DNA of 64,000 nucleotides from a virus, in the IMG/VR virus record IMGVR_UViG_3300027733_000040, positions 1 to 64,000 of that record; one strand, written 5' to 3'. Position 1 is the stretch's first letter. Every line of letters starts with the position of its first letter. The notes beneath the pieces were generated by a model that was not told the DNA's origin, made no database searches, and saw only the letters and a list, made by a program, of their open reading frames with translations. This document shows positions 15,068-47,301 of this stretch, piece by piece. The translations under genes and the position numbers were made by a program.

Positions 15068-18000
15068 TTATTTCCACGCTGTATAAAGTACTTTTAATTT
15101 TGATGTAGTTGGCGTCGGCGTTGGAGTAGCGGTTGGCGTTGGAGTAGCGGTTGGCGTTGGTGTCGGCGTTGGCGTTGGCGTTGGCGTCGGTGTCGGCGTT
15201 GGCCCAGAACCGCAATTAGGATCAAATGTGACAGTATATATAGCAGTCGATCCTGTCGGTAATGGCATTATCGATGCACCACCGGTCGATGTTATACTCC
15301 TAAGATAAGGAAGAACAGCAGGAACAGTTATTAACCCAGGAGATGCACTAACTAAACAAATGCCATCTAGACATTTTAATCTCATCCTCTTAATGGTTTT
15401 AGATCCGCTAACTAACTTTTCGATATTCGTGATTAAATACTTACCATTAAAGGGGTCTGTGGCACTATCTAGCTTTACCTCTATCGTATCACCGATATAA
15501 AATTGGATACCTTTACCATCGGTTATAGTATCGATCTTAGCAACATTATCGAATATAGTCATACATAAACCAGGGCCAACTGGTATTTGCGGTTTAACGA
15601 AGTCCTTCGCCAGTACGTATCCATTTCTTTCTGGCGACCCATGAGCTAATACAAAGGCACCATTGATAGACCCAAATCCGATCTGAACAAAACTAGATGA
15701 AAAAGTATCTGAAGCATTATTATTATCGATAATGCTATAACCATAACCATAAACATTTCCGCTCTTAAATACGACCAGACAACCTGAAGTATTAGGTTGA
15801 TAATCTATCACACCAGATTCTGGTAAATCTAATTTAATTGGTACGTAAGAGTTTCGCGGTAAACCGGTCTGACCAACAAAACCGCCCCAGAATAGCAAAT
15901 CACCGTCACGAGTTAAAGCCATGACATTCGTTTTGGAAGTACGTACACCAAACCCAACACCAGCTCCCAAGCCTATACCAGATACTCCAGGTCCAGCACC
16001 AGATCCTATGGTCTGCACTGGAATCGGATTATACATTGGGATTACTTTATTGGTTGTATAGCCCTCTTTCTGGTTGATGCCTAGTACACCACATTTGTTC
16101 TCACCAATAACATGCAGGCCGCCGGAAGCATCGACGATAATCAGCGCGGAATCACAAGCATATATCTGCTTGTACGATGGGTCGCTAGCTATCAGCGTGG
16201 GCTTATATAGGTAGGCGATGCCATTAGCATCTGTTCTTTCATAAGTAGTATCCGAAGTCCACTTGAGGCTTACTCCAAGATACGCCTCCATGCTGTTTTT
16301 ACCAACGTAGTATATCTCACCTTGATTAGTTAGGAACGCTGTAAATCCGTTACCAGGGGCGATTTGGTTATAGCTGACTTTTGATAATTTAGGTAAAAAC
16401 TCGGCAGTGACTCTAGTAGGCTCAGCGATAATTTCGCCTTTTTTATCATGGCATGCCTCGCTAAATGTGTCTATACCCCAAGTATACAGATCGCTATTCC
16501 CATCGATAGCGTAAGCCATGCTTCCGAATGTATTGACATATCGCCACATTCCAGGCGCAGCGACTAAAGAATTAACCTTACCATCGATTCTTAACATTTG
16601 GGTAGAATTATTTGGTCTTCCAGCCCAATAGCCTGAGCCATAAAGATAACCGTCAAAATTAGGCGTGCCGCTGCTAGGTGGATTTATAAGTAACATACCG
16701 CTTGAGCCAGATACTAAATGATTAATGCCATAATTCGATAATGTGTCCCCGTACCAGACAAAGCATTTACCATCTGGCACAGATGTGGGTGTGGGTGTGG
16801 GTGTGGGTGTGGGTGTTGGTGTTGGTGTTGGTGTTGGTGTTGGTGTTGGTGTTGGTGTTGGTGTTGGTGTTGGTGTTGGGGTAGGAGTCGGCGTAGGAGT
16901 TGGTGTAGGTGTTGGTGTTGGCGTTGGTGACCCCAATCGCGCAGCTGCTAAACTCATCCTTGCAGTGCCGACACCAGCTGTGTCAGTTGCTACAACACCA
17001 GATGAAGATACCAGATTTGTTATTGATAGTGCCGAACCTCCAGATGTCGAACCATATCCGAAAATGGCCCTATCACCGCCATAGCCAGCAGCCGCCAAGC
17101 GTGTTCTTGTAGTGCCTATTCCTGCGGTGTCTGTCGCTACAACACCAGATGAGGATACTAAATTAGTTAACGATACAGTCCCAGCTCCGGTATCACCATA
17201 TCCAAATATTGCTTTATCGGTCCCATATCCAGCCGCTGCCAGCCAGACTCTAGCAGTTCCTACTCCCGCCGTGTCCGTAGCCACGACACCGGTTGATGAT
17301 ACTAAATTAGTGAGAGAAATATATACTGAACCATTTGCAAAACCATAGCCAAATATGGCCTTATCACCACCATACCCAGCAGCCGCTAAAGCCTGTCTCG
17401 GTGTTCCTACTCCAGCCGTGTCGGTTGCTACAACACCGGTCGAAGTGACTAAATTGGTTATAGAATTATAAAATCCTGCGCCAGCTCCTGTGCCGCCGCC
17501 ATATCCAAAAATAGCCTTGTCGCCACCATATTCAGCCGCCGCTAATGTATGTCTAGCTGTGCCGACACCAGCTGTGTCAGTCGCAACAACACCAGTAGAA
17601 GAGACTAAATTCGATAGCGATAATACGACATTATTACTACCAAACGCAAATATAGCCTTGTTTCCACCATAGCCTGCGGCTGCTAGGTCGAACCTCTTAG
17701 TACCGACGCCAGTAGTGTCAGTCGCAACAACGCCAGTAGGTGATACTAAATTTGTTATCGATAAAGATCCCGCATTCTGTAAGAAGCCATAGCCAAATAT
17801 CGCTGAGGCCGCGCCGGGTGTAGGTGTTGGTGTCGTCGAAGGATCAAGACTTGCGGTGTTACATGTTATTAATTGCGCAATGCCATTTATAAGCAGCTCT
17901 GTTTGGCCGGCCGGCAAAGGCGCCACTCTATCCACCACAGCGCTTAATGTCGATTTGTTTATTGCATAAATCGTTCGGTTTAGATAGGTCGTCATATATA

Positions 18001-21000
18001 TCTGGCTGTTATAAACGAATAAACCAGAGTACGAATTATTTGCACTTATGCTCGGCAATTGTTTTACGTTCCATAACGTACCATCTAATTTATATTCTGC
18101 TATATAAAAATCATGATTATCATTAGCAATAATCGTGGTAAATCTGTTAGTTATTGGATTATATAATATTTCGTTAAAATTATCAGTCTTCCAAGCACCA
18201 GAATAACTTAAATCGAACAATTTAGTCACTACTATTTGACTTGTCGTGATATCAAGCTCAAATAAAGATTTAGAACCCAATAATAATTTATTGTTAGATT
18301 TATAACAAAATCCATCATGATTCCATGTCCCACCTGCAGCAGAAAAATCTAGACCAGGAATAGTCCCAGCAGTCCCTAACATAAAAACTCTAGCCGGCGT
18401 AGTATTAATCGAGAATGGAGTCGTGGTAATGTTATATTCGTCGATCCTATAGTTAGCTGGTGACGCATTCAGCTGTATGCTTAAAGTCCAAAATTTAGTG
18501 TCCGACATTGTGCTATCGGTTACTTCATAACCACCAATGGTTAAATCAGATAAAAGAATAGTGGTGTTTGGGCTATAATCATAATTCGTTAGTCTTCCTC
18601 TACCGTTAGCTGAGAAGATGATTTGGCAAGTGATATTTGGTGTTGGTGTTGGTGTTGGTGTGGCAACGGGGTCGCAAACTATTTTATGAACACCACCGTT
18701 GATTTCTGATATGTAATAATCCTTGTCTTCATAACCTCGGGTAGGGGTAAATATAGCGTTAAATCTTATCTTATCGCCGACAAAAAACGGCGTAGTAGGA
18801 ACAATCTGGACTGAATTATTATAAACTTGCCAAAATTCCCTATAATTATTTTGGATAGGATTATAGCCGTTAGTTAATATTAAAATTACTTGGTAGCCAT
18901 TCTTAAAAGTGTCAATAACTGCGCCAGTTTTAACACAAACAATTGTCTGATGCCCAGTATCTCTCAAACCTATTTTGGGCCATGAATCGAAGCAATTCGT
19001 CGGTGTTGGTGTTGGTGTTGGTGTTGGTGTCGGAGCGACAGTCACTTGATCGCAAATTATCTTGTGTACTCCGCCCGAGATCTCAGATATCATGTAATTT
19101 TTATTTTCATAACCTTGTAGCGGGCTATTAACCGCAGTAAACATTATAACATCGCCGACAGAGAATGGCGTTGTAGTAACGAGACCTAAATCATTATACT
19201 GCCAAAATTCTCTATAATTAAATTGGTTTGGGTTATAATGGCCAACTAGAGTTAACACTACTTGGGTATTATTTTTAAGCGTATCTATAACCGCGCCAGA
19301 TTTTACGCATACTATAAGTTGTTTTCCAGTAATTCTATAATATGGCGGCCATGAAGAAAAACAATTCGTAGGTATAGGTGTAGTGGCAAAAGTAGCGCAA
19401 GAACCCCCCCACACATTTGTAAATGCTGATATAACATTATTTGGCCAAGATCTACCATTCGCAATAGTACTCATGGTAGTATCGATATAGGCTAAGGTAT
19501 ATATCTGACATTCAACATCGGTGTAACCAATATAACCATTTAATGGCTGACATCTCGACCCTGCAGAACCTGGGCGAGTGTGTGGTAATTTAACTTGATC
19601 CCAATTGGTCACTAATTCAAGTGTCCACGGACCAAGCGGGCTAGAACTCGGAATACTAAACATATGCTTTGATTGTTTACCACAATCTGTGTTAGAATAT
19701 AATAACGGAACAGCGTAACTTGCCAAAACGCCATTTCTTGATGCAGTAATTGTATAGCTAAACTTATCGGGCGAACTACCTAGAAATGTTATATCCACAC
19801 AAATATTACGAACTTGTATTGTTGGTGTTGGTGCGCTTGGTATTGGTGTCGGTGTTGGGGTTGGCGCTTTTGGTGTAGGCGTAGGCGTTGGGGTCGGCAC
19901 TGGTGTCGGTGTTGGAGTCGGTGTCGGTGTTGGAGTCGGCACTGGTGTTGCAACAGGTGCTGGTAAACAACTTGTATTTGCGAATACCCACCTCAATACC
20001 CCATTAACGACCGAAGCATAATATGAACAAGCGCCAATACAGCCCGGCGAGCAAGGGCCATCGTATAGATCGCCTGACTTCACATTAGGATTAGTGACTG
20101 GGCCTAGGTCATAGGGGCAACTAGCGCAAGTGACCGGTGAGCCAGGCAGCGGAACAGGTGTGGCTAAGTAACTGGTACCATCAAACGTAACAGGATTTGC
20201 TATTAAAACAACATCAGGATCACTCACAAATAATTCTTTAGATCCTGTACCCAGCTGATATTCTATACCATTATAGCCCCACGCTAATAATTTAGCGCAA
20301 ATCGTTTTAGTAGTATAAGTAGGAGTAGGCGTCGGAGTAGGGGTAGGGGTAGGTGTCGGTGTTATGAAAGGACAAGCCAAAGTAATTTCATAGCCTTCCC
20401 ATAAAGGATTAAGTAAGGTCCCCTTCTTAGTGGCAATAGCTGTGACAACGTAGTCAGCAGTATTCGATACACCACCAACCATAGTGATGGTTTCGTTTTG
20501 TATAAAATTACGGCCGTTAGATAAGCCGCCATAAAACGAATTCTTTTTTGTCAAGAAGACACTGAAGTCAGTTATAACAGGAGCGCAAGCTGCTATATGC
20601 AAAACGTTGCCGTTCGCATCAACTTGAGTACCTTTATAAAATAGATCTACACTACCAGTGTTGGTGCTGTCTGGGATTCCAATGGTAACTGGTCCTGAAC
20701 TCTGTTTAACGTTTCTTACTCTTATCAATTCATTTATCGTAAACGCATAGCTATTATTCAGCGCCACGCCATTATTAAAATAGAATGTAGAATCGTCTGG
20801 ACATATTACATAAATTGGCGTGCCGCTAACGCTTGAAACTATTACACCGGAAGAAGCGCCTTTAATTTCACCACCAACATCGACTGTAAATTGAGTGCTG
20901 GTACCACGTGGTGGTGGTGGTGCGGTAGTGTTACCAGAGATATACCAACCAATAGAACACGGTGTAGTAGTGCTTGTGCTGGTTACTACAGCACCAGAAG

Positions 21001-24000
21001 TCTTACCAGTAGCCACAATATTGACGTATGGCACATCACTGCCACTTGGCCATTTCTGAAAACAAGTTAAATCTGGATTTACAAATGGTGGTGGTGATGC
21101 ATCGCAAAGAGATACAGCAATATTTGCTAGATTACCACGTTCGGCCGTCGAGGAAAAAGCCAGAAAACGATTATTTCCGAAAGCCACATCAGCATTACTT
21201 ATTATTAGCTGAGTGCCGGCATTACGAATATACCAATTATAGCCATCCGCAGAAACTGCTTCTATAGTGTCTGAAGATGTTACAAGGAAAATACTAGCCC
21301 CATAAACAATCCGCTTCCATTGCACGGGCGGTGTCGCTCTCGTGGTAGGTAGCGAAACTTTTGTCCATTTTTTAGCATCTAAAGAGACAGCCACATAATT
21401 AGCATCAAGAGCACTTGGTATCGCTATGAAAACACCATTTCCATAAGTGATGTCTACCCAAGGGTCTATCTTTACAGGCAGATTAAAAGTATTCCAATTA
21501 ACACCATCGAATGAAACCATCGTATAGCCAGCGTTAACTAAAACGCCATTTGCCAATTCTTGTGATGCTATAGCCACAAATACGCCATTGGCGTAAATCA
21601 GCTCTGACCACGCAGCAAAAGCTGGAAGCGTCATTTGGGACCATGTCGCGCCATCATCTACAGAGTAAGCACCAATGTTAGAAAAGCTTAGAGCTACATA
21701 TCTCCCAGCACCATAACATATTTGGATCCAATTTTTGTTAGCAGGGCTAGGTAATGCTGGTAAGGTAGAAAATATCTGCCATGTTTTTCCGCCATCAATG
21801 GACTTAGCGATTTCTTTTTCTTCTGATAATAACAGGTATGTTTTATCAGGGCCGACAGCAATATCCTTCCATACAGTAGTTCCAGCAGTAACACCACCAT
21901 AAACATTGTAAGGAGACCAAGTAGTACCATCGTCACTTATCTGGAGAGCAGAAGTTGTGGCGTTAAGCAGTAAAAAATTAGAACCATACGTAAAGAGCAT
22001 GTCTGTATAAGGCGACATACCACTAATAGCACTAACAAAGTCTGGAGCTTTACTTGCAGTCCAAGTAGTAAGGCAGCTAATAGCATTGCAATTAGATATG
22101 GAAGCCTTTGCGCCAGTAATATCACCACTAAAGGCCGCTATAAATGTGTTGTTACCTCTGAAGAAAGTTAAAAAACTTATGCCTGGCGCTACAGTATTAT
22201 AAGTCAGCGATGATATCGACCAATTTATACCATCGGTAGAGTGAATAATGTCTGAATCATCAACACGAACGGGTACTTTTTTAGCAGCGACGAAAGCAGG
22301 CCCTAAGTAAGTAGCCGAAGCAGTCGATGCACTTTTTATAATGCTAAGGGCTGTGACGTTATTAGGGAGTTTTATGTCTTCCCATTTAGATGGAGAGCCG
22401 GTCTTAACAGCGGCGCCGTTATCTAAGGTAATAGCAACAAGTATACCGCTGTTACCTTCAATGCCGATCCATTTATCAGATCGCGAGAATTTTTCTATTA
22501 TCCATGTAACACCATCTATTGATGTCAAATACGAGTCATAAGAAGAGCCGGTTGTATTTTTTCCAATCAGATAAAACTTATCACTGTAGCTGACAGTTAA
22601 CCACACATTGTTAGTGATTACTGGCAGATTAATGAGTGTAAATGTAAGCATGGTAGCATCGACAGGATGGGTAGCATGTTTATACACTTTACCATCAGAA
22701 TGGATGGCGATTATCACTTTTGAGGTAGCATTAGAACATATTGAAGTAATATTAAGATTTATTCCAACTTGTGTTGAGTCGAAAGGTTTAGCCCAAGTAG
22801 TACCATCATTGGTAGAAAGACGCACAACGCCAGACGTACTATAGATCACTAGTGCTGGAAGTGTAGCGTCAGCTAGAGACGCGATTTTGTTCCAATATCC
22901 TGTTGTTAATGCTGGGAGTGTAAAAGTGGACCACGTTTTTCCGGAGGTGCTTTTATATCCGATATCATTTGCAAGTGTATTTCCATAAATGTCATTATGT
23001 GTGATCGCAAAATAATATAGACCAAATGATAAGGTATCAACAATCACCCGATCTGGCGGAATGTCAGATCGTTCCCAAATATATCCGCATATGTTGGTTG
23101 CAGGTGTTGGCGTTGGAGTGGGTGTTGGTGTGGGCGTTGGCGTTGGCGTTGGCGTTGGTGTCGGTGTTGGGGTCGGTGTGGGTGTGGGGTTTCCACCAAC
23201 ACTAGCCGCGGCTAGACCGTACCTCTCAGAGCCGATACCGGCTGTGTCTGTGGCTACAATACCGGTGTTATTAACAAGATTAGTTATACTAACAGCAGTT
23301 GTAGAAGTGGTTCTGCCATATCCAAATATGGCTTTATCACCACCATATCCGGCTGACGCCGATCCCATTCTAGGAGTGCCAATTCCAGTAGCATCAGAAG
23401 CTACTACACCAGTATTGTTAACAAGATTAGTTAGAGAGATATAAAGACCAGCGCTAAACCCATAACCAAAGATTGCTTTGTCATTGCCATAGCCTGCTGC
23501 TGAAGGGCCTGATCTACTACTTCCAACGCTAGTGTTGTCTGATGCGACGACACCGATATTGCTAACAAGATTAGTCGTCGAATAAAGGCTACTATTGTCT
23601 TGCCCGAAGCCAAATATCGCCTTATCGCCTCCATAACTTGCTGCAGCTAAATAGTTTCTTTGCTTACCAACACCCGCTGTGTCGGAAGCTACAATACCAG
23701 TGTTGTTAACAAGGTTAGTTAGGGCGACATAAGCTGTAGAATAACCATAGCCGAATATGGCTTTGTCTAAGCCGTATCCTGCCGCAGCTAAGCCTATTCT
23801 CGCAGTTCCTACTCCAGACGTGTCGGACGCCACTATTCCCAAATTACTAACTAGATTAGTAGTGGAGACCTTTACATCTACACTATAAGTAACCCCATAT
23901 CCGAATATTGCTTTATCGCCGCCATATCCTGCTGCGGCCAAATAAAATCTTGCAGTTCCAACGCCAGTAGTGTCAGTTGCGACTACACCTGTATTAGAAA

Positions 24001-25795
24001 CTAGGTTTGTAACGCTCGATGTAGCCAAGCTGTCACCGAGACCAAATCCAAATATAGCTCGGCCGGTTGTGCTGGGCGTCGGTGTTGGAGTGGGTGTTGG
24101 TGTGGGCGTTGGAGTAGGAGTAGGCGTTGGAGTAGGCGTTGGAGTAGGCGTTGGAGTAGGCGTTGGAGTAGGTGAAGCTGTAGGCGTAGCTGTAGGCGTA
24201 GCAGTAGGCGTAGTCGGAGAAGGCGTTCCAGTACCACCACCAATATCAGTACAAGCACCCATCTGCACATTAGGACAATAAAAGAAAGGTTCTTGACAAC
24301 AATTATCGACTTCAGGAGACGCAGGAATTAGAATCTGCCAAGGAAACTGAGCGTTTTTTGGGCCGTCAGCACCATACCACGTTACACCACCAGTCTCGCA
24401 AGGTTCCTTGTTAGTTAAAGGTACCCAATCGAACGCATTCTTCTCATAATTATGCTTAGTAACACAATTAGGCAAAGGCTGCCAAACAAAAAAATTAGTC
24501 TTAGGCGTTTCAGAGCCGATAATATTGGTTTCATGTACCCTTAGAGACTTATATCTATTGGCAGTAGTTTCGACACTCGCTAAAACGCTTTTAATCGGGC
24601 TTTCAAAAGCCAAATTTGTTGATCCTGGCACCAAAGAGATATTATCGACATTAGTTTCTAAACTTATATCGCCAAACGATGATAATAAAGTCGAAGAACT
24701 CTTATCATATCTTAAGCCGATGAGAGGTTTTTTAGCTAGGACCGAACCGCCAGCTTCAATAGCGACTTCACTAACACTAAGTTTAGAAGATCCGATATCG
24801 CCCCTAGCTCCATCTGGGCCGCATTGCCTAGACTTTACAGCATAATTGGTATTCCAAGCACCGACTTTAAGGACGATTTTACCGTAAGCGATATGATATT
24901 CTTTATTATAACCTATAAGAGCGGCTGACGCAGCTTCATCGATCAAAGCTGAAAGCTCACCGGAAAAACGAACCGGAATCTCGCCAGTTGGATCAATTTT
25001 TATTTCTAGTACACTTTGCGCATTTATAGAATCTAAGTCAAGATTTTTAATGACATCATTTAAACAGAAGTAAAATTGATCATTGCCGGCAGCGCATTTA
25101 TTTCTAATATCGGCTTGAAGCCGCATATATTCTTCGTATTCATTATTAATAGTTAATAAATAAATCGGCAATTCGACATAAGATGGAAGAAGAGAAGGAG
25201 CAAAAGAAGGATCAAGTTCATCTAATCTTACACTAATATCTGGTACATGGCCATTGGGAAGATATATTTTTCCGCCGGCGGCAAGCGGTTGAGGAGTATA
25301 GACGGCAAACGACAGGGTATTATTGTCGAAAGTCGGATTAAATGAGAGTTCTGCGGGGGCTGCTAGGCCATCGACCCCAGCAGCACCGATTAATCCTCGC
25401 TGGCCGGTTGGGCCTTTGCATCGCTCATTATATAACAGACGATAAAGCCGCTGCATATTAATTTCTATGCGCAATTGGCTTTTAGATTCTGCTTTAAACT
25501 TGATTAATCGGTTGTTAGATCTGAAATAATAATAATAAGCACCTCTGCCTGGTAATATCTTTAAAGGCGCTTGGTTAAGGGCTTCTTTAAAATTTTTATA
25601 ATATTGTATTCGTTTATAGATTTCTGGGGAAACGAAGCCATCATTCTTTTCATCGACTATTATAGGTGGTTGAAGATAGCCGATTGAGACCCAAGTATCA
25701 GTAGAAGAGTAATATCTCCAAACATTTCCATACTTATCTGCGACTTCTTGACCGTCTTTAGCGTTTCTTGGGAAACGAGGTGTAAATTTAGCCAT
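15068..25795 (-). CDS. Giant modular adhesin with Pro-Thr linkers and propeller repeats (3575 aa)
   Basis: One uninterrupted 10.7-kb gene. The start has short collagen-like GXY runs (GPTGQRGLIGAAG near residue 130, GPDGARGDIG near 330). PT-repeat linkers then separate the modules. There are two arrays of six repeats of about 48 aa (KAIFGYG...TNLVSNTGVVATDT...LAAAGYGGD), BNR/sialidase-like repeats with DGXXW motifs (mid-protein), two or three CFXSWP domains shared with the 1974-aa protein, and an RCC1-like region near residue 3100 (LYTWGID, IYYVGKN). The ATG has an AGGA ribosome site. It is probably a long tail fibre or surface adhesin; the receptor is unknown. Confidence 0.7.
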   Translation of the reverse strand: MAKFTPRFPRNAKDGQEVADKYGNVWRYYSSTDTWVSIGYLQPPIIVDEKNDGFVSPEIYKRIQYYKNFKEALNQAPLKILPGRGAYYYYFRSNNRLIKFKAESKSQLRIEINMQRLYRLLYNERCKGPTGQRGLIGAAGVDGLAAPAELSFNPTFDNNTLSFAVYTPQPLAAGGKIYLPNGHVPDISVRLDELDPSFAPSLLPSYVELPIYLLTINNEYEEYMRLQADIRNKCAAGNDQFYFCLNDVIKNLDLDSINAQSVLEIKIDPTGEIPVRFSGELSALIDEAASAALIGYNKEYHIAYGKIVLKVGAWNTNYAVKSRQCGPDGARGDIGSSKLSVSEVAIEAGGSVLAKKPLIGLRYDKSSSTLLSSFGDISLETNVDNISLVPGSTNLAFESPIKSVLASVETTANRYKSLRVHETNIIGSETPKTNFFVWQPLPNCVTKHNYEKNAFDWVPLTNKEPCETGGVTWYGADGPKNAQFPWQILIPASPEVDNCCQEPFFYCPNVQMGACTDIGGGTGTPSPTTPTATPTATPTASPTPTPTPTPTPTPTPTPTPTPTPTPTPTPTPTPSTTGRAIFGFGLGDSLATSSVTNLVSNTGVVATDTTGVGTARFYLAAAGYGGDKAIFGYGVTYSVDVKVSTTNLVSNLGIVASDTSGVGTARIGLAAAGYGLDKAIFGYGYSTAYVALTNLVNNTGIVASDTAGVGKQRNYLAAASYGGDKAIFGFGQDNSSLYSTTNLVSNIGVVASDNTSVGSSRSGPSAAGYGNDKAIFGYGFSAGLYISLTNLVNNTGVVASDATGIGTPRMGSASAGYGGDKAIFGYGRTTSTTAVSITNLVNNTGIVATDTAGIGSERYGLAAASVGGNPTPTPTPTPTPTPTPTPTPTPTPTPTPTPATNICGYIWERSDIPPDRVIVDTLSFGLYYFAITHNDIYGNTLANDIGYKSTSGKTWSTFTLPALTTGYWNKIASLADATLPALVIYSTSGVVRLSTNDGTTWAKPFDSTQVGINLNITSICSNATSKVIIAIHSDGKVYKHATHPVDATMLTFTLINLPVITNNVWLTVSYSDKFYLIGKNTTGSSYDSYLTSIDGVTWIIEKFSRSDKWIGIEGNSGILVAITLDNGAAVKTGSPSKWEDIKLPNNVTALSIIKSASTASATYLGPAFVAAKKVPVRVDDSDIIHSTDGINWSISSLTYNTVAPGISFLTFFRGNNTFIAAFSGDITGAKASISNCNAISCLTTWTASKAPDFVSAISGMSPYTDMLFTYGSNFLLLNATTSALQISDDGTTWSPYNVYGGVTAGTTVWKDIAVGPDKTYLLLSEEKEIAKSIDGGKTWQIFSTLPALPSPANKNWIQICYGAGRYVALSFSNIGAYSVDDGATWSQMTLPAFAAWSELIYANGVFVAIASQELANGVLVNAGYTMVSFDGVNWNTFNLPVKIDPWVDITYGNGVFIAIPSALDANYVAVSLDAKKWTKVSLPTTRATPPVQWKRIVYGASIFLVTSSDTIEAVSADGYNWYIRNAGTQLIISNADVAFGNNRFLAFSSTAERGNLANIAVSLCDASPPPFVNPDLTCFQKWPSGSDVPYVNIVATGKTSGAVVTSTSTTTPCSIGWYISGNTTAPPPPRGTSTQFTVDVGGEIKGASSGVIVSSVSGTPIYVICPDDSTFYFNNGVALNNSYAFTINELIRVRNVKQSSGPVTIGIPDSTNTGSVDLFYKGTQVDANGNVLHIAACAPVITDFSVFLTKKNSFYGGLSNGRNFIQNETITMVGGVSNTADYVVTAIATKKGTLLNPLWEGYEITLACPFITPTPTPTPTPTPTPTYTTKTICAKLLAWGYNGIEYQLGTGSKELFVSDPDVVLIANPVTFDGTSYLATPVPLPGSPVTCASCPYDLGPVTNPNVKSGDLYDGPCSPGCIGACSYYASVVNGVLRWVFANTSCLPAPVATPVPTPTPTPTPTPTPVPTPTPTPTPKAPTPTPTPIPSAPTPTIQVRNICVDITFLGSSPDKFSYTITASRNGVLASYAVPLLYSNTDCGKQSKHMFSIPSSSPLGPWTLELVTNWDQVKLPHTRPGSAGSRCQPLNGYIGYTDVECQIYTLAYIDTTMSTIANGRSWPNNVISAFTNVWGGSCATFATTPIPTNCFSSWPPYYRITGKQLIVCVKSGAVIDTLKNNTQVVLTLVGHYNPNQFNYREFWQYNDLGLVTTTPFSVGDVIMFTAVNSPLQGYENKNYMISEISGGVHKIICDQVTVAPTPTPTPTPTPTNCFDSWPKIGLRDTGHQTIVCVKTGAVIDTFKNGYQVILILTNGYNPIQNNYREFWQVYNNSVQIVPTTPFFVGDKIRFNAIFTPTRGYEDKDYYISEINGGVHKIVCDPVATPTPTPTPNITCQIIFSANGRGRLTNYDYSPNTTILLSDLTIGGYEVTDSTMSDTKFWTLSIQLNASPANYRIDEYNITTTPFSINTTPARVFMLGTAGTIPGLDFSAAGGTWNHDGFCYKSNNKLLLGSKSLFELDITTSQIVVTKLFDLSYSGAWKTDNFNEILYNPITNRFTTIIANDNHDFYIAEYKLDGTLWNVKQLPSISANNSYSGLFVYNSQIYMTTYLNRTIYAINKSTLSAVVDRVAPLPAGQTELLINGIAQLITCNTASLDPSTTPTPTPGAASAIFGYGFLQNAGSLSITNLVSPTGVVATDTTGVGTKRFDLAAAGYGGNKAIFAFGSNNVVLSLSNLVSSTGVVATDTAGVGTARHTLAAAEYGGDKAIFGYGGGTGAGAGFYNSITNLVTSTGVVATDTAGVGTPRQALAAAGYGGDKAIFGYGFANGSVYISLTNLVSSTGVVATDTAGVGTARVWLAAAGYGTDKAIFGYGDTGAGTVSLTNLVSSSGVVATDTAGIGTTRTRLAAAGYGGDRAIFGYGSTSGGSALSITNLVSSSGVVATDTAGVGTARMSLAAARLGSPTPTPTPTPTPTPTPTPTPTPTPTPTPTPTPTPTPTPTPTPTPTPTPTSVPDGKCFVWYGDTLSNYGINHLVSGSSGMLLINPPSSGTPNFDGYLYGSGYWAGRPNNSTQMLRIDGKVNSLVAAPGMWRYVNTFGSMAYAIDGNSDLYTWGIDTFSEACHDKKGEIIAEPTRVTAEFLPKLSKVSYNQIAPGNGFTAFLTNQGEIYYVGKNSMEAYLGVSLKWTSDTTYERTDANGIAYLYKPTLIASDPSYKQIYACDSALIIVDASGGLHVIGENKCGVLGINQKEGYTTNKVIPMYNPIPVQTIGSGAGPGVSGIGLGAGVGFGVRTSKTNVMALTRDGDLLFWGGFVGQTGLPRNSYVPIKLDLPESGVIDYQPNTSGCLVVFKSGNVYGYGYSIIDNNNASDTFSSSFVQIGFGSINGAFVLAHGSPERNGYVLAKDFVKPQIPVGPGLCMTIFDNVAKIDTITDGKGIQFYIGDTIEVKLDSATDPFNGKYLITNIEKLVSGSKTIKRMRLKCLDGICLVSASPGLITVPAVLPYLRSITSTGGASIMPLPTGSTAIYTVTFDPNCGSGPTPTPTPTPTPTPTPTPTATPTPTATPTPTPTTSKLKVLYTAWK
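15104..15202. repeat. Pro-Thr linker repeat at the C-terminus of the 3575-aa protein
   Basis: A short GTTGGC/GTAGCG repeat encoding PTPTPTATPT just before the last residues of the giant protein. It uses the same design as the internal linkers. Confidence 0.8.
16784..16929. repeat. Long near-perfect hexanucleotide repeat (Pro-Thr linker)
   Basis: About 24 units of GTGGGT and GTTGGT in a row, the purest repeat in the window, encoding a PTPT linker between the second propeller-repeat array and the RCC1-like region of the 3575-aa protein. A strong candidate for slippage. Confidence 0.9.
16930..17820 (-). repeat. Second array of six 48-aa propeller-type repeats
   Basis: Six tandem units of about 145 bases within the 3575-aa gene. 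Each unit encodes KAIFGYG, a variable stretch, TNLVSSTGVVATDT, GVGTAR, and LAAAGYGGD. Copies are very alike in the constant part and differ mostly in the 8-15 residues after KAIFGYG. Confidence 0.88.
19820..19955. repeat. Pro-Thr linker repeat in the middle of the 3575-aa protein
   Basis: An imperfect PTPTP-encoding repeat interrupted by Ala, Lys, Val and Ser codons. Similar shorter linkers lie at about 18638-18660, 19003-19032 and 20318-20364, each marking a domain boundary. Confidence 0.75.
23103..23190. repeat. Pro-Thr linker repeat after the first propeller array
   Basis: Tandem GTTGGCGTTGGN-type units encoding PTPTP between the first array of six 48-aa repeats and the BNR-like region of the 3575-aa protein. 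Confidence 0.85.
23194..24060 (-). repeat. First array of six 48-aa propeller-type repeats
   Basis: Six tandem units with the same consensus as the array at 16930-17820 (KAIFGYG, TNLVNNTGIVASDT, GVGTAR, LAAAGYG). The copies here have diverged more than those of the second array. The two arrays are about 6 kb apart in one gene and are natural substrates for recombination. Confidence 0.88.
24075..24216. repeat. Pro-Thr linker repeat before the first propeller array
   Basis: Units of GGAGTAGGCGTT and GTAGGCGTAGCT encode a PTPTP/TATPTA linker between the N-terminal region and the first repeat array of the 3575-aa protein. Confidence 0.85.
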
Positions 25796-25899
25796 TTGTT
25801 TTCCTGTCGGTGGACCTTTATCTTTTAATTTTTATTTTAAATGGCGCATTTATTATGTACCAAGCTCCTCCCCGCCCGCCCTAAAAGCCTTTAAAAAAA

Positions 25900-26345
25900 A
25901 GACCAAAGGTGGCCGGAGGTGCAAATGGTTTATTAAATGCCTCGGTTTTACTATTTAACACTACCAGTCCGGCTCACCAAGTCGCTTATGGTTTGCGGGG
26001 TTTAGAGCCAGCTAATAGTCAACAATAATAATGGGATCTGCCGCCGTCGGTGAGGTTCAGTCACCCGTACACTCTATCAGGTTTGGTGTCTCAGATCTTT
26101 GAGTTAGGAACTATATATGGGGCTGCTGATGGCTCGCAGACATTCCGTCCTCTGTTAAGCCACGCCTTCTCTAGTGATATAGCTCATCGCCGAGTTGGGG
26201 AGTTACAGGCATTTATTTATACAAACCAGATCATTGGAGATAACTTGCCTGAAAAGACCGAATCTGGTTTCCCAACTGCTTTAAAACTTACGACAAACGT
26301 GGTCGCTATGTTGTCAACACTAGACTGTTGACTGTGTGATAATAC
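25900..26345 (+). ncRNA. Candidate large structured non-coding RNA of unknown class
   Basis: The 552-base gap between two minus-strand genes has no convincing protein gene but many helices. A 10-bp helix pairs 26015-26024 with 26326-26335 and closes a 310-base domain. Inside it lie: 26033-26040 with 26092-26099 (8 bp), enclosing hairpins 26049-26065 and 26069-26089; 26131-26140 with 26151-26161; and 26193-26199 with 26271-26277 (7 bp) stacked on 26223-26231 with 26262-26270 (9 bp, perfect). Bases 26206-26211 can pair into that hairpin loop at 26246-26251 as a 6-bp pseudoknot. Before the domain, 25908-25917 pairs with 25968-25978. The G-U pairs work only on the plus strand. Ends are approximate. 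I do not recognise tmRNA or RNase P; phage large RNA classes such as GOLLD and ROOL are possible relatives. Confidence 0.62.
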
Positions 26346-26347
26346 AC

Positions 26348-27436
26348 TTATTCTATTTCTTGGGATTCTGATAGGTATTGTTCATCGCCGAGTTGTATGA
26401 TTTCCTGATTTAGTTTTAATATCAGTTTGTCATCAAGCTCTTTAAAATTTTTATCTTTTTTAATCCATCTGTCGAAGTAATCGCTGATGCCGTAAGTTTT
26501 TATTTCTTTTCTGCCAGCAGTTATCTTTTCGACCGGGGTGATGAACTTTATGCTTTTAGGATTGTAGTTTTCTAGTAGTAGTCTAATCGATTCTTTCTCA
26601 TTCTCCGCGATGGTTTCACCCAACACGACACGAATGTGGTTATTCTTAATTACTTCTTCAGATGTCGAATTAACATCTGTGTGAATGATGGTATAAAAAT
26701 TTGGGGGCGGAGCTTCAGTTGGGTAGAACTTTTGGCCAGCTTTCTGGATATTGACGAACTTCTGTTCTAAAGTGTCAGTATCTAATACTAAGAATCCATG
26801 GGGAATACCTCCCTCGTCATGCTTAAAAGGTATTGGTGACCCTGGGTAATATACCCTATCGCCTATAGATTGTCTATTATGATAATGGCCAGTGAAGATC
26901 TTTCTATATGGTGTATTGTTAAATGTAATAGAAGAATTCGAAGCTTGGGTAAAGCAGGTGTTATAGGTGGCGCCATTTACACCAATGTGCGTTAGAAGTA
27001 TAGTTTCGGCATCAGCTTTTTGTGAAAGTAATTCTAAGACTTTGCGATATGTGCTTTCTTTGGTCATATACGGCAAGATATGGAAATGTCTTCCTTCTAT
27101 TACAAGATCTTTTATATCGTTAATAACCACTAATTTATCATTTATCGGATCTAAACTATTACATTTCCAGCTGTGCCTGAGATACATGTCGTGGTTGCCA
27201 GGAAATACGATCCATGTCTGCTTTAGCTCTCTGCATTCGTTAAAGAATTCTGTCGCTTTGTTTAAAACATCTATCTCTAGATATTTTCTATCATGGAAGA
27301 GGTCGCCGAGGATCAGGACGATGTCGATGTTAGCTACTTGACAATATGAACGTATTGTTTTTAGTGCATAAATGGTATCATTTAATCTGCCCGTGAGTCC
27401 TAAATGAATGTCTGCCGTTATTGCGATGTTTGCCAT
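26348..27436 (-). CDS. sbcD: SbcD/Mre11-like nuclease subunit (T4 gp47-like)
   Basis: A 362-aa metallophosphoesterase. The five phosphodiesterase motifs are in order: ADIHLG near residue 8, GDLFHD near 44, GNHD near 79, LLTHIGVNG near 150 and TGHYHNR near 186. It is the nuclease partner of SbcC/Rad50, which opens blocked or hairpin DNA ends for recombination-dependent replication. The partner gene is about 8.5 kb away at 35894-37708, whereas sbcC and sbcD are usually adjacent. The start is only 23 bases from the start of the divergent helicase gene, so promoters for both must lie within or across this short gap. Confidence 0.9.
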   Translation of the reverse strand: MANIAITADIHLGLTGRLNDTIYALKTIRSYCQVANIDIVLILGDLFHDRKYLEIDVLNKATEFFNECRELKQTWIVFPGNHDMYLRHSWKCNSLDPINDKLVVINDIKDLVIEGRHFHILPYMTKESTYRKVLELLSQKADAETILLTHIGVNGATYNTCFTQASNSSITFNNTPYRKIFTGHYHNRQSIGDRVYYPGSPIPFKHDEGGIPHGFLVLDTDTLEQKFVNIQKAGQKFYPTEAPPPNFYTIIHTDVNSTSEEVIKNNHIRVVLGETIAENEKESIRLLLENYNPKSIKFITPVEKITAGRKEIKTYGISDYFDRWIKKDKNFKELDDKLILKLNQEIIQLGDEQYLSESQEIE

Positions 27437-27459
27437 ATTTTGTTCCTTAATGGTGATAA

Positions 27460-29193
27460 ATGTATAATACGGATGATATAGATAAATTCTTTGTTAAATC
27501 TGCTTACCGCGATGGACAGAGGGAAGCTATCAAGTTCGTGCTTGATTCTTTTAATTCTGGTAAAAAGATCGTTATAATCGAAGCTCCCACTGGCTCTGGT
27601 AAGACTGCCATCGGGATGACGGTTGCTAAATTTTTCGATAATATGTATTGGCTAACTGCTACTAAGCAACTGCAAGACCAGTTAGTATCTGAATACGGCT
27701 CTATCGTGACGGAGCTTAAAGGCAGGAATGCTTATGAATGCGACGTCTGGGAAAGAATGAAAGGCAAAAAGAAATGGAGTCTTACCCTTGCCGCTTCGGA
27801 TATTAACAAGCTCGACAATGGTTTTAGGAATTGCTCCGTTGGTGTCTGTAAGACCAATTTGCTTGGCTCTGGCGTTAAGTGCCGCTTTTGCTTCGAGAAC
27901 GCAGAGGAGAATATTTTCTTGCCCCCTGGACGCACTTTCAGCGCCTGTGCCTATTATGAGCAACTTCATAAGGCGATCAATTCTAGATTTCTGTGTATGA
28001 ATTTTAGCTCTTTCCTCTATCAGACCACTTTTACCAAAGATCGTTTCGTTGATCCCCGCAGTCTACTTATTACCGATGAGGCACATAATCTTGGTCAAGA
28101 AATACTTTCTTTTGTTAACGTTACGATTAGCGATATCGATTTAAAAGAACGTGGCTATGCCCTTCCGGTTTTCGATAGTCCTAATCAGTATAAGCAATGG
28201 TTTTTAAATGAGAATATTATTGGTGTTTTTAAGGAGCTTGAGGAGATCGCAATTGCAGATGAGGACCATATAGCCGCTAGAGACTTTCTGGGTGTTGCCG
28301 GCAAGATCGAAATGTTTGTGGATAATGATTTCGATGATTGCGAATGGGTTATGGATCACGAAATTAAGTTTTCTCCTTCTGTCGGTGAATACCGTGTGCT
28401 TAACTTGAGACCAGTTATCGTTGGTGATTTTGCCGAGCGTTTCATTTTTAGGCATGGTAACAAGGTGCTTCTGATGAGTGCTACTATTCTTGATGTCGAC
28501 ACTTTTTGTAACACCGTTGGTGTCGATAGGTCTGACGTTGCTGCTCTTAGGATGAAGAATCGCTTTCCTGTCGAGAATAGGCCGATTTACTATTGGCCGG
28601 CTGCTCAAATGACCGGTGGTAAGGATAAGATGGTCGATTGGGGTCCACCTTTGGTTAGGTCAGTCGAAGCTATCGTTAATAAATTTGGCCACCAAAGGGG
28701 AATTATTCATACTCATAATAACGCTATTATGGAGTATCTTAGCCTGAATTGTGAATCTAGTGTTTCGAAGCGTTTTAGATCTTCTAAGGATTATCCTAAT
28801 AGGTCTGACCTTTTAGACTCTCATGCTTTATCCCATGATAGCATCATTATTTCTCCTTCTCTTTATGAGGGCGTTGATCTTAAGGATGATTTGAGCCGTT
28901 TTCAGATCGTTTGCAAGATGCCTTTTGCTAATTTCTATGATGATAAGCAGTTGGCGGCGAGGATGAAATTAGATGATAAATATTATGACTGGATTACTGT
29001 TTTAAGGCTTGTGCAATCCGTTGGTAGAAGTGTTAGGTCTCACGCAGATCATGCCGACACATTTATTATAGATGGGTCTTTCGAGAGATTATTTAAAAAA
29101 GCCAAGGCGATGTTTCCGGCGTGGTTTAAAGAAGCGGTGGTCGATATTTCTAGTTTGAGGCAGGTTCATTTACACCAACCTTTAAATATATAA
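27460..29193 (+). CDS. XPD/Rad3/DinG-like superfamily 2 DNA helicase
   Basis: A 577-aa helicase. Walker A APTGSGKTA is near residue 42 and the DEAH box (ITDEAH) near 204. Between them lie cysteines spaced like the XPD/DinG iron-sulfur cluster (YECDV, CSVGVC, CRFC, ACAYY). The C-terminal half has LLMSATI, YEGVDLKDD and the arginine-finger motif QSVGRSVR near residue 527. It is expected to be a 5'-3' helicase for repair or fork restart. It is the first gene of the long rightward block, divergent from sbcD. Confidence 0.9.
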   Translation: MYNTDDIDKFFVKSAYRDGQREAIKFVLDSFNSGKKIVIIEAPTGSGKTAIGMTVAKFFDNMYWLTATKQLQDQLVSEYGSIVTELKGRNAYECDVWERMKGKKKWSLTLAASDINKLDNGFRNCSVGVCKTNLLGSGVKCRFCFENAEENIFLPPGRTFSACAYYEQLHKAINSRFLCMNFSSFLYQTTFTKDRFVDPRSLLITDEAHNLGQEILSFVNVTISDIDLKERGYALPVFDSPNQYKQWFLNENIIGVFKELEEIAIADEDHIAARDFLGVAGKIEMFVDNDFDDCEWVMDHEIKFSPSVGEYRVLNLRPVIVGDFAERFIFRHGNKVLLMSATILDVDTFCNTVGVDRSDVAALRMKNRFPVENRPIYYWPAAQMTGGKDKMVDWGPPLVRSVEAIVNKFGHQRGIIHTHNNAIMEYLSLNCESSVSKRFRSSKDYPNRSDLLDSHALSHDSIIISPSLYEGVDLKDDLSRFQIVCKMPFANFYDDKQLAARMKLDDKYYDWITVLRLVQSVGRSVRSHADHADTFIIDGSFERLFKKAKAMFPAWFKEAVVDISSLRQVHLHQPLNI

Positions 29194-29218
29194 TATACTT
29201 TATCTTATGAGGTATACT

Positions 29219-29821
29219 ATGACTAATTATTTTAACGATCTTGTTGGTGTTGGCGCTGCGCAAATGCCTGGTACTGATTTAGTATTCTCGGTGGTTATTA
29301 AAGATTTCGATCTTATTATAGAGATCGGAACTGATAACGGCGGATTTTCTGTATGGCTTTATAAAAATAAGCGGCCTGAGGCTTTATTTCTTACCTATGA
29401 ACTAGAACCTTCGCATGTCAAAATCCCTAAAAACCATGAAGTGAATGATAGTATCAGATATTGTGATTGCTTTTCTCCTGATATTATCGATTCTATTTCA
29501 TCTTTAATTGCTTCGAGAGATAAAACTTTGATATTATGTGATGGTGGAGCAAAGACTAAAGAATTCGATATATTTTCGAAATTTCTTAAGATAGGCGATG
29601 TTATTATGTTACACGACTTCGCTGATTCGCCTAATGAATCTGAAAATTATTCAGCAGTTAAATCAAGATTATTATCGACTGGACTTTGGGATGGTATTGG
29701 GTTCGAAGTGCACGAGTCTTCTTTAAACATGGTTCAATCTAGCATAGATTCAGTAGGTCTTGAAAAGTATAAATATCTAGATTTTTTAAGTGTTTTATGG
29801 GGCTCTTTCATAAAACTTTAA
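29219..29821 (+). CDS. Cephalosporin hydroxylase/methyltransferase-like (Rossmann fold) protein
   Basis: About 200 aa. Residues 25-45 (DLIIEIGTDNGGFSVWLY) form a Rossmann-type glycine motif I, followed by LILCDGGAKTKEFDIF and IGDVIMLHDFAD, which match the CmcI-like and class I methyltransferase pattern with the D and HDF motifs. The start at 29219 is chosen because GAGG lies six bases before it; an ATG at 29207 is possible. It begins the glycan and small-molecule modification block. The target is unknown. Confidence 0.65.
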   Translation: MTNYFNDLVGVGAAQMPGTDLVFSVVIKDFDLIIEIGTDNGGFSVWLYKNKRPEALFLTYELEPSHVKIPKNHEVNDSIRYCDCFSPDIIDSISSLIASRDKTLILCDGGAKTKEFDIFSKFLKIGDVIMLHDFADSPNESENYSAVKSRLLSTGLWDGIGFEVHESSLNMVQSSIDSVGLEKYKYLDFLSVLWGSFIKL

Positions 29822-29841
29822 CACTGCATTTCTTGTGTTAA
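29818..29841 (+). terminator. Hairpin after the methyltransferase-like gene, possible weak terminator
   Basis: A 7-bp perfect inverted repeat (TTAACAC and GTGTTAA, loop about 10 bases) overlaps the stop codon. It is not followed by a clear T run, so it may be a processing or stability hairpin. Confidence 0.35.
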
Positions 29842-29863
29842 TTCGCGGTTATCTGATTATTTT

Positions 29864-29896
29864 TTATAGTTATGTAGATATCGTGTCTAACTATAA
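29864..29896 (+). promoter_or_regulatory. 9-bp leader hairpin directly before the ribosome site of the nucleotidyltransferase gene
   Basis: TTATAGTTA (29864-29872) is perfectly complementary to TAACTATAA (29888-29896), with a 15-base loop. The AGGA ribosome site begins at the very next base, followed by the ATG at 29906. In this position it could shape translation or mark an RNA-processing site. Confidence 0.5.
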
Positions 29897-29905
29897 AGGA
29901 TAATA

Positions 29906-30529
29906 ATGAAAGCCGTGATATGTGCCGCAGGCTTTGGGGCTAGATTAAAGCAAAATATTCCAAAAGCAATGGCCATGGTGAATGGCAAAAGAATTATAGA
30001 TTACCAAATTAAAGCCCTAAAGAATTATGAAGAAATATATGTGGTAGTTGGATTCAGATCTAATCTCATAATAGCTCATTTAAAAAAGCTAGATAATATT
30101 AAATTTATATTAAACAATGATCCTGACCTAGGCATAATGCACACTATGCGGCTGATTTCTAAGGAAATAAACGAATTGGCTCTAATTTTAGATGGCGATA
30201 TTATAATTAATGACGAAATTCCTTTGTTTAATCATGAATTTATAGGTATAAGTGCCCCGATCTACCATAATCAGGCCGACACTAAAGCCGATAAAAAGCT
30301 TGTTTATGTTGGTACGAAAGAGTCCGAGCAAGACTCTGCAAATATTTTCTGTACTAACCCTGGTAAACACGATTGGAACACCTTATCCATTCATGAAACT
30401 TTATCAAGATCCTTACCTAAGCCGTTTTTGCGTTTTGATTCTTTTAAGATTAAAACGCCAGATGATAAGAACGCTGCATATACTTGGTTAACTAAATTCA
30501 GCAATAGTAACCTCAAAAATAATCAGTAA
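29906..30529 (+). CDS. Sugar-phosphate or choline-phosphate nucleotidyltransferase
   Basis: A 207-aa protein with the nucleotidyltransferase signature AAGFGARL...PKAM at residues 6-22, then YQIKALKNY, and LILDGDIIIND near residue 90 with the catalytic metal-binding Asp. The fold matches LicC/GlmU/MobA-type enzymes that activate a sugar or choline phosphate as an NDP derivative. It sits in a block of glycosyl- and methyltransferases and probably supplies an activated precursor to them. The substrate cannot be read from the sequence. Confidence 0.8.
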   Translation: MKAVICAAGFGARLKQNIPKAMAMVNGKRIIDYQIKALKNYEEIYVVVGFRSNLIIAHLKKLDNIKFILNNDPDLGIMHTMRLISKEINELALILDGDIIINDEIPLFNHEFIGISAPIYHNQADTKADKKLVYVGTKESEQDSANIFCTNPGKHDWNTLSIHETLSRSLPKPFLRFDSFKIKTPDDKNAAYTWLTKFSNSNLKNNQ

Positions 30530-30561
30530 TTATAATTTATTCCATTCATTTAGGTATCATT

Positions 30562-31212
30562 ATGCTCCGATTAAAAAATGTTACATTGTTTATGGCTGAT
30601 GGGCGCACGGATAAAAAATCTTTTGAAAGCTCGCTTTTTGCTGTTAGGCAATGCATTGATAAAGTCGATTTTGGTGAAGTGATATTTCAATCGGCTTACG
30701 ATTCAGATATCACAGGTGTCGGCTATAAAAAAATAAAGCCAATGGTTATCGGTGAGTATAGTAAATTAATCAGTGGTAGTCTTACTGACCACATCAATAC
30801 TAAATTTGTTCTTGTTGTTCAACATGATGGTTTTATTCTTAACACTGCTAATTGGAATCCTGATTTTTTAAATTATGATTATATAGGCGCACCGTGGCTT
30901 TTGGAAGCTACCAAAAGACCCAACTGCCGAGTAGGTAATGGAGGGTTTAGCCTGCGTAGTAAAAAGCTTTTAGATGTTTGTAAAAAGCATTACGGCGGTA
31001 CCTGGGATAATGAGGATTGGCAAATTTGCCTTGTCAATAAGCCATTATTTGAATCACACGGTATAGTGTTTGCGCCTTTAGATGTAGCAACGTGGTTTTC
31101 GATAGAATCACACATACCTGAATATGATCATGATATTAAAAAGCGCTTTGGGTTTCATGGGCCGCGCCAATATGAGGCTGTGAATGCAGCTTATGGGTTT
31201 GATCTTAAATAA
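30562..31212 (+). CDS. DUF5672-like putative glycosyltransferase
   Basis: A 216-aa protein with the features of DUF5672 proteins found in glycan clusters: FVLVVQHDGFIL near residue 92, YDYIGAPW near 109 and VGNGGFSLRSKKLLDV near 127, then NEDWQIC. The HDG and NGGFSLRS segments resemble donor-binding and catalytic parts of GT-A enzymes. Same operon direction as its neighbours, with a gap of 32 bases before and 9 after. Confidence 0.75.
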   Translation: MLRLKNVTLFMADGRTDKKSFESSLFAVRQCIDKVDFGEVIFQSAYDSDITGVGYKKIKPMVIGEYSKLISGSLTDHINTKFVLVVQHDGFILNTANWNPDFLNYDYIGAPWLLEATKRPNCRVGNGGFSLRSKKLLDVCKKHYGGTWDNEDWQICLVNKPLFESHGIVFAPLDVATWFSIESHIPEYDHDIKKRFGFHGPRQYEAVNAAYGFDLK

Positions 31213-45822: not shown

Positions 45823-46115
45823 ACATTATTGAAATATTAGACCAGTTAGATGATGATATCGGTCTTTTATTTAAGACCGAGCAATGGTTACATTCAGAAA
45901 AATCGCGTGTGTCAGCTGAAGCTTCTGACATACTAAACAGATTAAAAGCAATTGACAATGCTATAAATCTGAAGAAGGTATTGAATAACATAGACATTGG
46001 GGCTTTAAGGCATGCCTACGATGATGGTTTCCACGGAAAAGAAAATTTAATGCTTGAATTGATCAAATCCTATCTGAATAATTCTTCGGCGGAGGCTCAA
46101 GATGCAACGCGGTAA
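45819..46115 (+). CDS. Small helical protein upstream of purZ
   Basis: A 98-aa acidic helical protein with coiled-coil character. The start overlaps the previous stop as ATGA (4 bases) and its end overlaps purZ by 14 bases, so it is firmly embedded in the operon. No known motif. It could be a partner or regulator of its neighbours; this is only suggested by the tight spacing. Confidence 0.6.
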   Translation: MNIIEILDQLDDDIGLLFKTEQWLHSEKSRVSAEASDILNRLKAIDNAINLKKVLNNIDIGALRHAYDDGFHGKENLMLELIKSYLNNSSAEAQDATR

Positions 46116-47301
46116 GTTCAATGTGGTTACTGATGGTCAGTTCGGTAGCACCGGAAAAGGGCTGATCACTTCTTACCTTGCACAAAAACACAGACCCGAA
46201 TTTTTATCAAACACCAATATGGCCAATGCTGGACACACAGCCGTTAATGTAGATGGCACTGCTTATATCGCTAAAGCAATGCCATCGGCTGCGATATTAA
46301 GAAAATGGCTACCTGATTACAATCCTTGGATAATAATGGGTTCTTCTTCTGCATTTACGCTACCGCAGCTAATGAAAGAAGTCGAAATAACTGGAAGTGT
46401 CGATAGGCTTATTATTCACCAAAGAGCTATGGTGATCACAGAAGAGCACAGGCAAAGGGAAAACGAAGGCAAGGATAGCACAAAGCATTTAGCGAGCACG
46501 ATGCAGGGCTGTGGGGCCGCCATAGCAGACAAGATCCAAAGATTGCCAGGGACCAAGCTTGCAGTTGATTACGAAGAATTAAGTCGATTTGTATTTTGCA
46601 AAACGTGGACACGACCTTCTTCTATATTAGAGGATATGTCTCTTTTTGATCCATTTAATGTGATGTGTAAACACCATTGTGAAGCCCTACACGAATACAT
46701 TGACTGTGTACTCAGGGCTACGTTCACTTTTCTCCACGAAGGCGCTCAGGGATTTTCGCTTGATATCAATCATGGCCACTCATATCCTACTTGCACTAGC
46801 CGCGGTACATCGGCAATTCAGAATTTAGCCGATATGGGTATTTCGCCCAAGTTCCTTGGTGATGTATATCTGGTACTTCGACCATATCCAATAAGAGTTG
46901 GCAATGTGATCGAAGATGGTGTTCAGCAAGGGTATTCTGGTGGTGGTTACGATGACCAAGTCGAAATCGATTGGGAAGAAATAGCAAGAAAATCTGGGAT
47001 GCCGCTAGAGTACGCTACGATATTAAGAGAGAAAGAGAAAACCACCGTTACAAAAAGGGTTAGAAGGGTGTTTTCTTTTTCTAAAAGGCAACTGCGTGAG
47101 GCCGTGATGGTGAATGGTGCCACTAAATTAGCTCTTAATTTTGCTAATTATATCGACTGGGCTTGCTTTGCATCATCATCAAAAGACAAACTTACCCCAA
47201 AGATCCTTGATTTTATAAAAATGCTCGAGGATGTCGCCGGAATACCTGTAACGCTTGTTGGAACTGGCCCACAATATGACCACGTCATTGACCTATCGTA
47301 A
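46102..47301 (+). CDS. purZ: PurZ-type adenylosuccinate synthetase (2-aminoadenylosuccinate synthetase)
   Basis: A 399-aa protein of the PurA/PurZ family. In PurA the P-loop is GDEGKG with a catalytic Asp; here it is GSTGKG at residues 15-20, so Ser16 replaces that Asp, the hallmark of phage PurZ. The other family elements are present: NAGHT with His45, EGAQGFSLDINHG near 215, YPTCTSRGT near 229, PYPIRVGN near 261 and TTVTKRVRRVFSFS near 315. PurZ joins dGMP and aspartate on the way to 2-aminoadenine (Z) nucleotides. An AGGAGG-like ribosome site lies inside the preceding gene. Function is inferred; no MazZ or DatZ partner was seen in this window. Confidence 0.87.
   Translation: MQRGKFNVVTDGQFGSTGKGLITSYLAQKHRPEFLSNTNMANAGHTAVNVDGTAYIAKAMPSAAILRKWLPDYNPWIIMGSSSAFTLPQLMKEVEITGSVDRLIIHQRAMVITEEHRQRENEGKDSTKHLASTMQGCGAAIADKIQRLPGTKLAVDYEELSRFVFCKTWTRPSSILEDMSLFDPFNVMCKHHCEALHEYIDCVLRATFTFLHEGAQGFSLDINHGHSYPTCTSRGTSAIQNLADMGISPKFLGDVYLVLRPYPIRVGNVIEDGVQQGYSGGGYDDQVEIDWEEIARKSGMPLEYATILREKEKTTVTKRVRRVFSFSKRQLREAVMVNGATKLALNFANYIDWACFASSSKDKLTPKILDFIKMLEDVAGIPVTLVGTGPQYDHVIDLS

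Follow-up and report, generated by a model that had tools for sequence, protein, structure and literature searches.

Two minus-strand genes of the window (the whole 64,000-nucleotide stretch of viral DNA analysed here) are separated by a gap of 552 bp, and it is on the plus strand of this gap that an RNA gene is predicted. The main features of the locus are as follows:

15068-25795, minus strand: gene for a 3575-aa repeat-rich protein, divergent from the RNA, with PT-rich linkers and an N-terminus kept in relatives
25851-25856, plus strand: -10-like element TATTAT, 8 nt before a conserved CUCC, with counterparts in nine other lineages
25862-26345, plus strand: predicted large structured non-coding RNA gene, located by the window-free model R2 on its core and, over the full length, by conserved blocks that keep their order in nine relatives
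26348-27436, minus strand: SbcD/MRE11-like nuclease gene (PHROG 100, E 5e-50; Pfam Metallophos), convergent with the RNA

The minus-strand placement of both neighbours agrees with the first-pass annotation, which had started the structured region at 25900; the RNA would begin ~40 nt further left. Its 5' end is placed at ~25862-25870 by the conserved CYCCCC just past the -10-like element, and its 3' end at ~26345 by the homologue of the terminal ..UAAAUAC/AUAAUAC, i.e., a length of about 480-486 nt in the window. Across 10 lineages the summed TATAAT score is 43, versus 33.6±2.4 at control positions (P 0.0002), and the accompanying -35 signal is weak (P 0.009). The RNA would be transcribed independently, from its own sigma70-like promoter.

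Several further observations concern the surrounding DNA. Many (PT)n linkers separate the repeated domains of the 3575-aa protein (15068-25795, minus strand), and these tracts, repeated along the giant gene, are likely recombination-prone. A 14-bp repeat, TCATCGCCGAGTTG, occurs at 26186-26199 in the RNA gene and again at 26382-26395 in the 3' end of the MRE11 gene, where it codes for QLGDE. The window also carries an adenylosuccinate-synthetase-like gene (46102-47301, plus strand; PHROG 1211, '2-aminooxy adenylosuccinate synthetase', PurZ-like, E 3e-64) and a DNA polymerase gene (1904-3304, minus strand), a pairing that possibly points to a modified-base (2-aminoadenine) genome.

Comparative evidence for a conserved fold

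The large structured non-coding RNA of the first-pass annotation had been proposed from helices drawn in this one sequence. All those that could be reconstructed exist and pair, yet as single-sequence evidence they do not go beyond chance: MFE z-scores against shuffled sequence are at chance level for the plus (0.06, -0.17) and minus (0.44) strands, and stem counts exceed those of shuffles marginally (P 0.04-0.27). Drawn helices and folding energy alone thus leave a structured RNA undecided, and it is comparison that settles the question.

Among close relatives, three records have a gap in the same place, at 95-96% identity. The window and the 95%-identical relative L011 differ at 25971 (G>A) and at 26009 (C>T), which together make one compensatory pair, and of the ~35 columns that vary among close relatives, two lie within the 120 paired positions, these being the partners 25971/26009. 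In L002 the plus-strand ORF at 26050-26331 is frameshifted and most changes are non-synonymous; the indels and frameshift among close relatives thus exclude a conserved plus-strand protein. Conservation at this range is otherwise difficult to interpret in recombinant genomes such as these: compared with L011, 49% of fourfold sites differ in the repeat-protein gene as against 0% in the flanking helicase gene, and the window-L002 conservation alone was rejected as evidence since it is confounded by recombination. Over 24086-30747, divergence from L011 is mosaic, with breakpoints in or near the MRE11 gene (26700-26950 is divergent, and both sides are nearly identical).

Distant relatives were gathered by a search with an MRE11 alignment, and six of the records so obtained have a block resembling 26066-26106 (78-86% identity) in the same gap and orientation. 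In all, nine distantly related large-phage records share the conserved core, with the RNA mostly in the same slot beside an MRE11/SbcD-like gene; the MRE11 proteins of window and distant carriers are 41-46% identical. From eight relatives, with the window left out, RNAalifold found 27 pairs unaided, 20 of which show compensatory double changes. For the same eight, the named structure has a covariation score of 0.587 versus 0.238±0.028 for shuffled data (0/500), within a homologue set that is modest in number (nine distant homologues). Displacing a strand by 1-3 columns lowers the score to ≤0.127, and with the window group added the core scores 0.567 versus 0.221±0.030 when shuffled.

The models carry this to sequences beyond their alignments. 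R1 found two members outside its training set (L114, E 2e-16; record of L115, E 4e-18), both in MRE11-relative records, and R2 found a third in the record of L117 (L185, E 5e-12). Applied to the window, R2, a covariance model built without it, has a sole significant match in 64 kb, at plus-strand 26011-26106 (E 6e-12; the next has E 8). The proposed large structured non-coding RNA is thus borne out by the compensatory changes in distant relatives, which the first-pass annotation had named as a check, by the R2 match and by the lack of a conserved protein. Since the folds persist through matched mutations across nine large phages that are distant relatives, this is very probably a real, working RNA.

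Architecture and spread of the RNA family

The helices of the window RNA, all on the plus strand, are:

25870-25875 with 25995-26000: H1, pseudoknot of CCCCGC with GCGGGG in the H3 loop; pairs in the window
25960-25963/26016-26019: H2; covariation of the homologous helix in alignment A7
25969-25975/26005-26011: H3 hairpin; covariation of the homologous helix in A7, and G-C to A-U at 25971/26009 versus L011
26033-26040/26092-26099: H4, outer core helix; 8 bp including two G-U
26049-26065: H5 hairpin, GGUGA/UCACC; covariation
26070-26073/26085-26088: H6 hairpin, CACU/GGUG; 11-nt conserved loop
26206-26211/26246-26251: H11, 6-bp pseudoknot helix CAGGCA/UGCCUG; crosses H9
26223-26231/26262-26270: H9, 9-bp helix AAACCAGAU/AUCUGGUUU; pairs in the window
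26291-26310: H7 hairpin, CGAC-AAACGTG-GTCG, then CTATG; shared motif
26313-26319/26326-26332: H8 hairpin, GUCAACA/UGUUGAC; positional homologues

Of these, H2, H3, H4, H5 and H6 were tool-tested, and H1, H9, H11, H7 and H8 were matched by eye. Double changes occur in 6/7 pairs homologous to H4 (9 distinct sequences) and in 7/9 of the helix homologous to H5. H6, which holds the best-conserved sequence block, ACTCTAYCAGKTTYGGTG, varies as CAC/GUG, CGC/GCG and UAC/GUA among relatives, with its U-G pair (26073/26085) being U-G in 8/8 of them. For H1, whose strands were chosen by eye, 58/58 positions pair over 9 lineages with 8 distinct strand pairs, versus 81% when strands are swapped. Positional homologues of H9 are present in seven relatives, where the strands (compared by eye) differ yet remain complementary; for H11, GGUGUU..CUU of the relatives pairs with AAGAACACC in the same order, and the window sequence differs. 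The H7 motif, N4-AAACNNN-N4'-YUAU, recurs in nine relatives including L118 and L185, always with a 7-nt loop, and at the place of H8 the relatives have a hairpin of other sequence. The family thus has two pseudoknots, partly matched by eye: H1, and H9 crossed by H11.

Much of the earlier drawing survives this comparison. Its helix with G-U pairs at 26033-26034/26098-26099 is H4, which has comparative support; its U-G pair at 26073/26085 belongs to the conserved small hairpin H6; its 9-bp helix is H9, supported by position and by the same crossed topology with the pseudoknot; and its 6-bp pseudoknot, given without coordinates and presumed to be H11, is probably right, as the relatives have the crossed topology. 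The closing 10-bp helix (26015-26024/26326-26335), in contrast, pairs in the window yet is not supported, because it clashes with the conserved H2 and with H8 and has no counterpart among relatives. The suggested shape switch is not supported either: of the two alternative helices, the 'rival', H8, has positional homologues and the closing helix is not conserved.

Along the family, the conserved blocks follow one order from the 5' end: CYCCCC..; GCUCC..GGUCGAA; CUGCCGYCGUC; ACUCUAYCAGKUUYGGUG..CUCAG..UUCGAGUUA; YUUUUAR; AAGAACACCCUAAGAACC; GC-AAACNNN-GC-CUAUG; and UAAAUAC. CYCCCC-to-UAAAUAC lengths are about 486 nt in the window and 589, 618, 603, 793, 673, 694, 773 and 740 nt in others, so that eight relatives span ~590-790 nt; the member in the L117 record is longer, with core and H7 about 1 kb apart. 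The window RNA is the most reduced member, being without hairpin H10, much of the middle and much of the H9 loop, and its 3' half appears homologous mainly via order and shape. On the strength of these alignments, we consider it likely, with considerable confidence, that the plus strand encodes a previously uncatalogued family of intricately folded non-coding RNA, of which the window has a short member.

In nearly all carriers the RNA is antisense to MRE11; the exception, L185, lies on MRE11's own strand and on its other side. The distant relatives L007-L009 have no gap and no RNA, with the MRE11 stop overlapping the next start (in L007/L008, at about 5078-5110, the start of the repeat-protein gene; ATTGATGG / ATTAATGG). 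In the MRE11 tree, a single branch separates the carriers from the rest (1 change versus 8.6 when shuffled; support 55/88), so a single origin of the RNA followed by vertical inheritance would be the simplest reading. A marginal match of both RNA models, R1 and R2 (E 0.04-0.08; G007; L182/L187, record of L130, 75164-75281), in a phage outside the carrier branch was not accepted; it is possibly a very divergent member.

Exact-pattern scans with right-end and middle segments returned nothing beyond syntenic copies. Five extra matches to a degenerate core pattern were judged chance, as were 20-mer matches in Bdellovibrio, Pseudomonas and Leptolyngbya genomes, in which R2 finds nothing. Cultured phages and plasmids searched with the window and relative RNAs gave no match, nor does a cultured relative of even L113's MRE11 protein appear at E 1e-20; the lineage is one of uncultured large phages.

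Alternative readings of the locus

The antisense position of the RNA to MRE11 in nearly all carriers could suggest that it exists to dampen the mRNAs of the MRE11 or repeat-protein gene next to it. Such a role is improbable, however, as the window RNA overlaps neither flanking coding sequence, the L185 RNA has the opposite arrangement, and an antisense role requires no covarying structure. A cis-acting leader of a same-strand gene (riboswitch, attenuator or 5' UTR) would suit L113, where a same-strand 445-aa ORF starts about 35 nt past the RNA; in the window and most relatives, however, the gene that follows runs the other way, and no expression platform is conserved, making this reading very unlikely. 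Even less can be said for the idea that the conserved DNA controls the giant gene from the minus strand (T4-late-type TATAAATA and leader). That octamer does occur on the minus strand at 26214-26221, but there are 17 such octamers in the window versus 11.3 expected, i.e., its presence is not specific, and a control region leaves the compensatory changes unexplained; we regard it as exceedingly improbable.

A mobile or self-splicing element (intron or IS-associated RNA) might be suspected from the gapless relatives L007-L009 and from L010, in which window 26019-26069 abuts an unrelated phage gene, five contigs identical over that gene lacking the segment. The L010 match (contig 3300042339_000019, 9731-9781; 50/51) begins mid-RNA and occupies the last 51 bases, where a chimeric end would lie; the five contigs that lack the RNA segment have the neighbouring gene at 100% identity. 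The junction is probably such a chimeric contig end, the alternative being a recombinant insertion, and it was rejected as proof of mobility. With no intron or omega-RNA family matching at E 10, and with common synteny and a common branch among carriers, mobility is highly unlikely. The notion of a decayed protein gene, or of other non-functional filler, draws on the 93-aa plus-strand ORF at 26050-26331 with its collar-like GTIYGAADGSQTF, 15 residues of which match a collar consensus. Pfam and PHROGs return nothing significant, however, none of the ten records is matched by the collar model, and the relatives, beyond the L002 changes described above, preserve helices and not frames. No conserved protein from the region, which the first-pass annotation had named as a refuting outcome, was thus found; a decayed collar-domain gene as the main reading is refuted by the covariation, and this whole line of explanation is scarcely credible.

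Comparison with known large RNAs

To our knowledge, bacteria and phages have so far yielded just a few non-coding RNAs that are both large and structured. The present RNA matches none of the catalogued classes searched, in keeping with the first-pass statement that no known class was recognized. Rfam 15 gave no match at gathering score for the window or 12 relative loci; at E up to 10 the window yielded nothing above chance and no match to introns or omega-RNAs, and L113 and L179 gave chance microRNA/snoRNA scores only (E up to 5). ARAGORN detected no tRNA or tmRNA in the 64-kb window or eight relative loci, nor the tRNA-like domain and tag ORF of a tmRNA. Group I and group II intron models did not match, and the RNA sits between genes, interrupting none. 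No account of the family turned up in the literature searched. OLE, RNase P, tmRNA and group I/II introns are like the present RNA in size and compactness, but without an Rfam match.

The comparison with GOLLD and ROOL drawn in the first-pass annotation is apt as to kind, but these RNAs are not relatives. The GOLLD model (RF02032; E up to 1) and the ROOL model (RF03087) were silent in 17 whole records, the built-in control genomes being silent as well. ROOL resembles the present RNA as a ~500-600 nt ornate phage or prophage RNA of unknown function, but differs in the lack of a model match and in that no tRNA neighbours were found for the present RNA. GOLLD differs likewise in model match and in its conserved sequences, and the window RNA adjoins SbcD/MRE11 rather than a tRNA island; tRNA neighbours are common, though not universal, for GOLLD. 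The likeness to GOLLD lies in a large, pseudoknot-rich, ORF-less phage RNA with conserved and variable domains, found in lake/aquatic phages (PMC12286853). GOLLD, ROOL and OLE form RNA-only complexes (homo-oligomeric assemblies; 2025; PMC12286853), those of GOLLD and ROOL being RNA-only cages (PMC12286853).

Between carriers of the present RNA, homology, synteny, compensatory changes and pseudoknots (the last partly by eye) are observed, with no protein conservation. As in large ornate RNAs, there is extensive covariation-backed secondary structure with pseudoknots, and no conserved reading frame (indels, frameshift; Pfam/PHROGs). Our best reading is that of a new, trans-acting family of large ornate phage RNA, one that parallels GOLLD and ROOL and belongs to neither. 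During infection, the RNA would act in trans as a folded molecule. Because a stand-alone, ORF-less, pseudoknotted phage RNA with a promoter-like element resembles both GOLLD and ROOL, we tentatively prefer, by analogy, a rigid fold of their type that would assemble with itself or with the ribosome or proteins. That the family is a large phage RNA class that is new, has no sequence relationship to GOLLD, ROOL or any Rfam family and serves as a pseudoknotted infection-time scaffold, possibly a self-assembling particle, has in our judgement somewhat less than an even chance. That the RNA keeps its position next to the gene of a DNA-repair nuclease would be a first clue to its job. An unrelated family with a minimal member of ~480 nt and relatives of up to ~790 nt would allow a direct test of whether RNA particles, as formed by GOLLD and ROOL, are general in phages.
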